The notes under the pieces: generated by a model
What the model was told of the DNA's origin: nothing
Databases searched by the model: none
What the model saw: the letters and a program-made list of their open reading frames with translations, nothing else
DNA from: Candidatus Kinetoplastibacterium crithidii (ex Angomonas deanei ATCC 30255)
GTDB lineage: Bacteria; Pseudomonadota; Gammaproteobacteria; Burkholderiales; Burkholderiaceae_B
Reading direction: 5' to 3'
DNA length: 64,000 nt
Assembly: GCF_000319225.1 (NCBI RefSeq)
Contig: NC_019815.1
Span: forward strand, 744,001-808,000
Shown here: piece by piece, positions 15,146 to 31,623 of the stretch
Numbering within the stretch: position 1 is the stretch's first letter
Layout of the letters: each line of letters starts with the position of its first letter
Translations under genes and position numbers: made by a program

Positions 15146-17020
15146 CTAATCTAAACTTCTTGGTTTCCAAATTTGGCCAATATATATTTTTTTTATGTTT
15201 TTTTTACTTCCATAGAATAGATTAATTAAAAATTTTACAAATATTACAGAAGAAAAAATTGATGATAAGATGCCAATGCAATGTACTACAGCAAATCCTC
15301 TTATAGATCCTGACCCTAATATTAATAAAGATAAACCAACAATAAAAGTGGTTAAGTTTGAATCTAAGATAGTATTCCATGCCTTTTCAAACCCATCTTC
15401 TATTGATTTTTTTGGTGAATTTGACTCATTTCGTAACTCTTCTCTTATGCGTTCGTTTATTAAAACATTAGCATCTATTGAAATCCCTATTGTTAGCGCA
15501 ATGGCCGCTATACCTGGTAATGTAATTGTTGCTTGTAATATTGATAATGCGGAAATTAATAGTACTATGTTTAATGCTAATCCAATGGAAGCAAATATGC
15601 CAAAGATTTGATAGTATAATGTCATGAAAATTACTATAGCAGAAAAGCCATAAAATATAGATTTCATTCCTTTATCTATATTGCTGGATCCTAAGCTTGG
15701 CCCTATGATTTTCTCTTCTATTATGTTCATAGGAGCAGATAGCAGTCCTGAACGAAGTATCAAAGATATATCAGCTGCTTCTTGATAATTCATAGATCCA
15801 GTTATTTGTATATTTCCATTAGGAATTTCACTTCTTATTATTGGTGCTGTTATAATTTCCCCTTTTCCTTCTTCATATATTAATATCGCTAACCTTTTAT
15901 TTATATTATCTCTTGTCACATCTTTGAAGATCCTCGCTCCTTTATTATCTAAAGTCAAATTGACAGATGGCTGACCAGTTTGTGGATCTCTTCCAGGTTG
16001 TGCATTATATATGTTCGCACTGTTAATAATAGGATGGGCATGTACTGCTATTCTATTATTATGTTTATCGCAAAAAAGTTCTTTGCCAATTGGAATTATT
16101 CCTTGAGATAGTGATAATTGTGTTGATTTTGAGTCATCAACTAACCTGAATTCTATTGTGGCAGTTCTTCCAAGAATTTCTTTGGCTTTCATAATATCTT
16201 GTAGGCCTGGCAATTGAACTATTATTTCATCAGATCCTTGTTGTTGAATTACAGGTTCAGATACCCCTAAAGCATTTATACGATTATTTAATGTTAGTAG
16301 GTTTTGTTGAATCGCTCGTTTTTTTATTTCTGATATTTTAGAAGGTTCAAATTTACATTCAAGTTGATTTCCTATTATATTAGTAATAATTCCATCGACA
16401 GAAGATTTTATTTTTTTGTTGAGTTCATTAATATCATGATTGTTTGCTAGAGATATACGAATACTTTTGCTGTCATTGTATATTTTTCTAACGTCTAACT
16501 TATGTTTTTTTGTTATTGCTTTGATATCCATTAATAAATTATCATAGTTAGAAGATATAGCTTTATCTATATCAACCTTAATTAAAATATGAATACCACC
16601 TCTTAAATCTAAACCAAGTACGATTGGTTTAGGTGTGAAAGGTCCTAGTTTTAGCATCCATTTCGGAATATTGGAGACTATATTAGGCGTAACAATATAG
16701 GGGTTAGATGCGTATGTATTATTTAGTAAATTTTCTATTATGCTGGTGGATATTATTTGATCATCAGGATATAACAAAAGAATATCTATAATAGACGAGT
16801 CGCCTTTTTTTACAAGTGAACATTTTTTATATGGAATATTCACTTGTTTTATTGCTGCTTCAATTTTTGCTGCTAGCAAATCATCAACTTGTATATTTTT
16901 TTTTACACTTCTAATTTGGATAGATGGAGACACACCATATAGATTTGGTATGAAATACAGAATTCCTATAAAAACTGTTAGTATTATAAGAATGTTTTTC
17001 CATCTTGGGTAGCAGTTCAT
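15146..17020 (-). CDS. secD: Protein translocase subunit SecD
   Basis: Large subunit of the SecDF translocation motor. The 624-residue product has one N-terminal membrane helix, the GLDLRGGIHILIKV motif (about 140-153), the large periplasmic P1 domain with the signature GRDPQTGQPSVNLTLD, and a C-terminal block of membrane helices with GIAAIALTIGISIDANVLINERIREE. Length and motif order are typical. Upstream yajC is 53 bases away; secF is 29 bases downstream. Confidence 0.97.
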   Translation of the reverse strand: MNCYPRWKNILIILTVFIGILYFIPNLYGVSPSIQIRSVKKNIQVDDLLAAKIEAAIKQVNIPYKKCSLVKKGDSSIIDILLLYPDDQIISTSIIENLLNNTYASNPYIVTPNIVSNIPKWMLKLGPFTPKPIVLGLDLRGGIHILIKVDIDKAISSNYDNLLMDIKAITKKHKLDVRKIYNDSKSIRISLANNHDINELNKKIKSSVDGIITNIIGNQLECKFEPSKISEIKKRAIQQNLLTLNNRINALGVSEPVIQQQGSDEIIVQLPGLQDIMKAKEILGRTATIEFRLVDDSKSTQLSLSQGIIPIGKELFCDKHNNRIAVHAHPIINSANIYNAQPGRDPQTGQPSVNLTLDNKGARIFKDVTRDNINKRLAILIYEEGKGEIITAPIIRSEIPNGNIQITGSMNYQEAADISLILRSGLLSAPMNIIEEKIIGPSLGSSNIDKGMKSIFYGFSAIVIFMTLYYQIFGIFASIGLALNIVLLISALSILQATITLPGIAAIALTIGISIDANVLINERIREELRNESNSPKKSIEDGFEKAWNTILDSNLTTFIVGLSLLILGSGSIRGFAVVHCIGILSSIFSSVIFVKFLINLFYGSKKNIKKIYIGQIWKPRSLD

Positions 17021-30620: not shown

Positions 30621-31623
30621 TTGGACATTATAGATAAAGCTTTACAATATCTTCTAGCCAGTAAGGTCATTGTGTTTCCAACAGAGACTGTATATGGACT
30701 TGGAGCTGATGCTGAAAACATAGAAGCTGTTAGAAAGGTTTACTCGATTAAGGGTCGTCCATTGAGTCATCCTGTGATCCTTCATTTACCTAAAGTAGAT
30801 GATCTTGCTTATTGGGCTTCTGATATTCCTGATGAGGCATATAAATTGGCTGATATTTTTTGGCCAGGACCTTTAACTTTAGTTTTAAAAAAATCTTCTA
30901 ATGTTCCAGACATAGTGACTGGAGGGCAGAATACAGTTGGAATAAGGTGTCCATCGCATCCAGTTGCGCAAGAAATTCTTATTGCTTTTGCAAAAAGCAA
31001 AAACCATAAAAAAGGAGCTTTAGCTGCTCCTTCTGCTAATATGTTTGGCAAGATATCTCCTACTTGCTCGAGTCATGTATACAATGAATTTAATAAAGAA
31101 TATTTGAAAGAGATTTTTGTTGTAGATGGTGGGGTTTCAAATATAGGAATTGAATCTACAATTATAGATTTATCAGGTATAAGAGAAGGAAAAAAAGCAT
31201 CAGTATTGAGGCCAGGGCATATAACAGAAATGAATATTGCGAAAATTATTGAATTAGAATCAAAAGATTTGTCTAGCAATTCAATTGTTGTTTCTGGTTC
31301 TCTAAAATCACATTATGCTACTATTACCCCTCTAACTGTTATTGATGATACTTTTTTTTTCTAAAAACTTGTCGGTTTTTGCACAAAAAGTTGATAGATT
31401 AGCTGTACTATATTATGGAGATAAACCGATTAATGTCGAAGAAAATATAGATTTGTATTATATGTCTTCTGATCCAATAATTTATGCTAGACATTTATAC
31501 GCTATGTTGAGGAAAATCGATTCTAAAAAATATTCTAGAATATTTGTTAAAGATTTACCTTTTTTAGCTGAATGGGATGCTATCAGAGATAGATTATATA
31601 AAGCGGCTGCAGGTTTTAATTAA
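30621..31623 (+). CDS. sua5: Threonylcarbamoyl-AMP synthase (Sua5 type), reading frame broken at a T9 run
   Basis: Sua5/TsaC makes threonylcarbamoyl-AMP for the essential t6A37 modification of ANN-reading tRNAs. The first frame (30621-31364, TTG start) holds the whole YrdC domain: FPTETVYGLGADA, KGRPLSHPVILHL, GIRCPSHPVAQEIL, SANMFGKISPT. It then runs into a T9 tract at 31352-31360 and stops a few codons later. The next frame (to 31623) continues exactly with the C-terminal Sua5 domain (KNLSVFAQKVDRLAVLYYGD and onward). Removing one T gives a continuous product of 333 residues, the normal Sua5 length. Slippage on the T tract, a sequencing error, or real truncation to a TsaC-like protein are all possible. 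An ATG at 30606 is not usable, being followed by an in-frame stop. Confidence 0.85.

Follow-up and report, generated by a model that had tools for sequence, protein, structure and literature searches.

The frame break in sua5 of the Angomonas deanei symbiont genome CP003978 is probably a homopolymer-length error of 454 sequencing

In the deposited genome of Candidatus Kinetoplastibacterium crithidii, the gene sua5 is divided between two reading frames that meet at a tract of nine T residues. Very probably, the living bacterium carries an intact long-form gene, and the break at T9 is a homopolymer-length error of 454 pyrosequencing that was left uncorrected. This explanation, which a preliminary description of this DNA had listed only as an alternative, fits best because the sequence stems from a 454 project and because the sample of 208 genes contains 10, including several vital ones, with the same kind of split at an A/T run. 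The true tract would then differ in length from the deposited one, and sua5 would be an ordinary single-copy gene for a long-form Sua5, probably unbroken in the cell.

Sua5 is the threonylcarbamoyl-AMP synthase that catalyzes the first step of tRNA t6A synthesis. The window analyzed here, a stretch of 64,000 nucleotides, comprises bases 744,001–808,000 of the single-contig, 821,813-bp genome of the A. deanei symbiont (hereafter G000), and the features discussed are collected in Table 1. In profile searches, residues 11–199 of the upstream part match the YrdC family PF01300 (E 1.5e-50), while the downstream part matches positions 60–136 of the Sua5_C family PF03481 (E 6.4e-12), confirming the two frames meeting at T9 that the preliminary description had delineated. 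The N-terminal YrdC domain of a long-form Sua5 is therefore present, whereas Sua5_C lies outside the YrdC frame in the deposited sequence and inside it in all seven relatives of the genus. Directly after T9 there is one C followed by an in-frame UAA. A search of the entire genome with PF01300 returned one match, sua5 itself, and thus no second copy of tsaC/sua5. Regarding the t6A partner genes, G000 yields two TsaD-family matches, the stronger with E 5.0e-89, and a TsaE match with E 8.3e-33. No literature dealing with Kinetoplastibacterium together with threonylcarbamoyl was found.

Table 1. Coordinates of the sua5 features (window positions) and of two further broken genes (genome positions, with locus positions in brackets).
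Feature	Position	Strand	Remarks
sua5 upstream part, 247 aa	30621-31364	+	TTG start; TAA just after the T tract; encodes the YrdC catalytic domain and the interdomain segment
sua5 downstream part, second frame	31342-31623	+	Most of Sua5_C; PF03481 match
T9 tract	31352-31360	+	Junction of both sua5 frames; run length probably wrong in the 454 assembly
metG (MetRS)	G000:C1:722171 (L054 ~2171)	-	Split at A9
valS (ValRS)	G000:C1:254095 (L096 ~1096)	-	Split at T8

Each of the 40 relatives searched has at least one PF01300 match, and the seven other genomes of the genus all contain a single PF01300 gene with an intact frame of 332–353 codons. In six of them the frame measures 332–335 codons, with which the 333-residue protein restored in the preliminary description agrees. 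PF03481 is found in all eight genus genomes, within the long frame in every one except G000. The frameshift is shared by none of the seven relatives, and none has T9 at the junction site, the two nearest having shorter T runs. Ribosomal frameshifting at this U-rich site, yielding full-length Sua5, is extremely unlikely: a shift at a repetitive site beside a stop is conceivable, given the C and the in-frame UAA that adjoin the tract, but the site is not conserved in any of the seven relatives and, thus, is not an inherited programmed signal, a candidate that was rejected for this reason.

The constraint on both parts was estimated as pairwise dN/dS by Nei–Gojobori counts over 244 upstream and 86 downstream codons. 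Among G000 and its two nearest relatives, PNG-M02 (G006) and TCC2435 (G007), the upstream values are 0.31 (G000–G006), 0.17 (G000–G007), and 0.17 (G006–G007), and the downstream values 0.41, 0.34, and 0.22 in the same order. In pairs with G005, a more distant relative, the upstream part gives 0.34 for G000, 0.41 for G006, and 0.25 for G007, and the downstream part 0.71, 0.55, and 0.77, so that in this comparison the broken gene lies inside the range of the unbroken ones. In every one of the six pairs the downstream part evolves faster than the upstream part, also in the three between unbroken genes, and the downstream excess that G000 shows against its near relatives is slight, being based on 19–22.5 nonsynonymous changes. 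Moreover, the downstream part contains no additional stops. Decay of this part was therefore rejected, as the preliminary description had held, since there is no extra stop and the constraint is not clearly looser than among intact relatives. A downstream part that is not visibly decaying is compatible with an intact or a rescued gene, and also with a break that occurred very recently.

The last of these would correspond to a real, recent mutation after which the 247-residue product functions by itself as a short TsaC does, with decay of the downstream part imminent. TsaC enzymes of a single domain are functional in numerous bacteria, and the E. coli gene tsaC has been described as interchangeable with yeast SUA5 (PMC9654439). 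In addition, the catalytic domain is complete in the 247-residue product and Sua5_C incomplete, and the downstream dN/dS values of G000 exceed the upstream ones (0.41 versus 0.31 with G006, and 0.34 versus 0.17 with G007). However, the downstream part is also the faster one between unbroken genes (0.22 versus 0.17 for G006–G007, and 0.77 versus 0.25 for G007–G005), it has acquired no further stop, the long form is kept in all seven relatives, and the other broken genes of the G000 assembly favor an error. A switch to a short TsaC-like enzyme, which the preliminary description had also considered, is consequently highly improbable, the downstream dN/dS of 0.41 and 0.34 and the long form of all seven relatives leaving it unsupported.

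The sequencing history of these genomes bears directly on the preferred explanation, a 454 error. The G000 sequence (CP003978, 821,813 bp) was obtained by 454-based pyrosequencing of host cells, as judged from the main text of PMC3616161, in which the word Illumina does not occur. The other genome of that paper is G002 (820,037 bp). PNG-M02 (816,901 bp), the symbiont of A. ambiguus, is described as sequenced with PacBio and Illumina reads, and TCC2435 by 454 and Illumina (PMC8229890). The same source gives 821,930 bp for the assembly of the A. deanei TCC036E symbiont. The two new genomes of that paper exceed TCC036E in the number of annotated pseudogenes, most of which are frameshifted, so that frameshifts in an annotation are no peculiarity of 454-only data.

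Breaks of the sua5 type were surveyed in the window plus ten 20-kb stretches of G000, a sample of 264 kb or 32% of the genome, with the matching stretches of G006 as the reference. ORFs were filtered for overlap and begun at a start codon; stop-to-stop ORFs gave many false matches from antisense frames and upstream extensions. In the forward direction, the survey started from 315 G006 ORFs with a length of 100 codons or more, 208 of which were matched in G000, the 107 unmatched ones including those on five G006 stretches taken from non-corresponding places. In the reverse direction, 214 of 218 G000 ORFs were matched in G006. A preliminary filtered survey had matched 136 of 250 G006 ORFs, with 156,760 of the 264,000 bases aligned; this lower count is due to five sampled stretches being located in a region that is inverted relative to G006. 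Broken genes were named by NCBIfam from their unbroken G006 copies, two names remaining below the family cut-off, namely that of the phosphoglycolate-phosphatase-like (gph-like) gene and, just below it, that of the lolC/E-family gene.

Ten of the 208 matched G006 ORFs (4.8%) are split between two frames in G000, and none of the 214 matched G000 ORFs was classed as a single-run break specific to G006 (Fisher's exact p = 0.0008). Thus, in this sample, like breaks exist in other conserved genes of the 454 assembly and not in the better-sequenced relative. Every one of the ten falls within an A/T run or directly borders one; this run has 9 bases in two genes (sua5 and metG), 8 in five (rpsK, rpiA, dxs, dnaG, and hflK), and 7 in three (the gph-like gene, der, and the lolC/E gene), with the local alignment more divergent and the exact lesion less clear for der, dnaG, and hflK. 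Since A/T runs of at least 7 bases occupy about 1.2% of the sampled bases, this placement is not due to chance, and it is predicted both by sequencing error and by real slippage. Within the 64-kb window, sua5 is the sole break of this type. The reverse survey flagged seven rows, none counted as a single-run break of G006: three rows concern one ORF and one row another, both with multiple lesions in G006, two mirror the hflK and rpsK breaks of G000, and one corresponds to a fused G000 ORF. The two multi-lesion ORFs, which we take to be MsbA-like (three rows) and LptF-like (one row), probably represent, in contrast, real gene decay in the A. ambiguus symbiont. The multi-lesion genes of G006 (L055:18860-19999 and L061:11775-12148) are unbroken in G000.

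Several of the genes affected are vital. The gene metG is unbroken in all seven genus relatives. The break in valS, which is unbroken in G006 and G007, was met outside the sample and hence is not included among the 10 of 208. In rpsK, encoding S11, the break is located near the start and puts just the normal N-terminus of the G000 protein out of frame, and the conserved domain is open in all eight genus genomes. The breaks in der, hflK, dnaG, and dxs fall within 13 kb (G000:C1:262440-275119, L048), starting about 8 kb past valS, and the four together with valS span approximately 21 kb (254–275 kb). The chance of finding at least 4 of 10 breaks in one given 20-kb stretch is 0.005, or about 0.05 allowing for ten stretches. 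This cluster suggests poor coverage of the region in the assembly, and low local read depth would explain it. Elsewhere, on the minus strand of L050:16138-18033 (G000:C1 at about 436–438 kb), a single ORF of 632 codons corresponds to two separate G006 genes, presumably asd- and truA-like; G000 lacks the intergenic sequence located between two short direct repeats, owing either to a real deletion or to a repeat collapse in the assembly.

Some observations were counted against a sequencing error. Homopolymer lengths in G000 mostly equal those of G006: 479 of 507 comparable homologous runs of at least 6 bases are identical in length, G000 being shorter in 11 and longer in 17, a count that leaves out tracts with differing flanks or gap placement, including those of sua5 and metG. 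In nine of the compared pairs the G000 run has 9 bases, and all nine are of equal length in G006. The equal runs indicate that the G000 assembly is not grossly wrong. Moreover, 16 of 18 runs of at least 9 bases inside sampled ORFs are not at a detected break. In the window, six other 9-base A/T runs are found in unbroken ORFs (at 16896, 29678, 34004, 37973, 40553, and 57511), and those at 16896, 29678, 37973, and 40553 also appear 9 bases long in G006, judged by their place in the ORF, which suggests that such tracts are tolerated in intact genes. As controls based on stop-to-stop ORFs, G002 presented two broken ORFs among 77 matched of 179 G003 ORFs, and G003 four among 80 matched of 183 G002 ORFs, several of them near A/T runs and some near or before the start; run-associated breaks are thus not confined to G000. 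Finally, similar frameshifts have been reported in an Illumina genome of Blochmannia (PMC3017870).

The preliminary description had favored another explanation, in which T9 is real and RNA polymerase slippage would give a mixed mRNA population, part of it encoding full-length Sua5. The G000 genome is AT-rich and reduced, and the downstream frame of sua5 is under the constraint that a rescued gene would require (dN/dS 0.41 and 0.34 over 86 codons). Runs of nine A or T residues are described as slipping in bacterial transcription, correction of 12–50% of transcripts is reported for long poly(A) runs of insect endosymbionts (PMC5009743), and eight such frameshifted genes, including dnaX and dnaG, are described in Blochmannia vafer (PMC3017870). 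However, the T9 tract is absent from the site in all seven relatives, the sequence stems from a 454 project, and slippage would be needed at once for metG, valS, dnaG, der, dxs, and the S11 start, several of these at runs of only 7–8 bases, against the 9-base and long poly(A) runs of PMC5009743. Run-length errors left uncorrected are far more likely than a cell that depends on slippage for Sua5, the S11 start, MetRS, ValRS, primase, and Der together. Rescue of sua5 by slippage is therefore unlikely, and it is very unlikely that the breaks are real on the scale of the assembly, with about 5% of genes expressed only via slippage at 7–9-base A/T runs, unlike in G006.

With 454 error as the preferred explanation, about 5% of the sampled genes in CP003978, vital ones included, appear to have homopolymer-associated breaks, and it is advisable to consult a second assembly before gene loss, host dependence, or protein import in this model symbiont is deduced from that record. 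If, on the other hand, the breaks were real, the slippage rescue known from endosymbionts would be extended to a much larger scale; if T9 in sua5 were real, the gene would join the known slippage-rescued genes of endosymbionts.

The G000 breaks can be compared with three known systems. Like long-form Sua5, G000 encodes YrdC, the interdomain segment, and Sua5_C, but as deposited the reading frame breaks inside the stretch that the Sua5_C model covers. The errors described for contigs of a 454 metagenome assembly affected 2.13–2.78% of genes and favored A/T and longer runs (PMC3277595), and the G000 breaks share with them this preference, the splitting of a few percent of genes, and the conservation of the genes otherwise. 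The rate in G000 (10 of 208, 4.8%) is of that order, though higher, in a genome of about 31% G+C that is richer in A/T runs than that metagenome, with about 47% G+C. The slippage-rescued genes of Blochmannia and Buchnera with frameshifts at poly(A)/poly(T) tracts, as described in PMC3017870 and PMC5009743, resemble sua5 in belonging to AT-rich obligate symbionts, in carrying a single homopolymer indel upstream of a constrained frame, and in including informational genes. Among those breaks, some have been conserved across species and some are reported to yield mixed mRNA, whereas the break in G000 occurs in one assembly only; nevertheless, sharing with relatives is not strictly required, since lineage-specific frameshifts have been proposed in B. 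vafer (PMC3017870).
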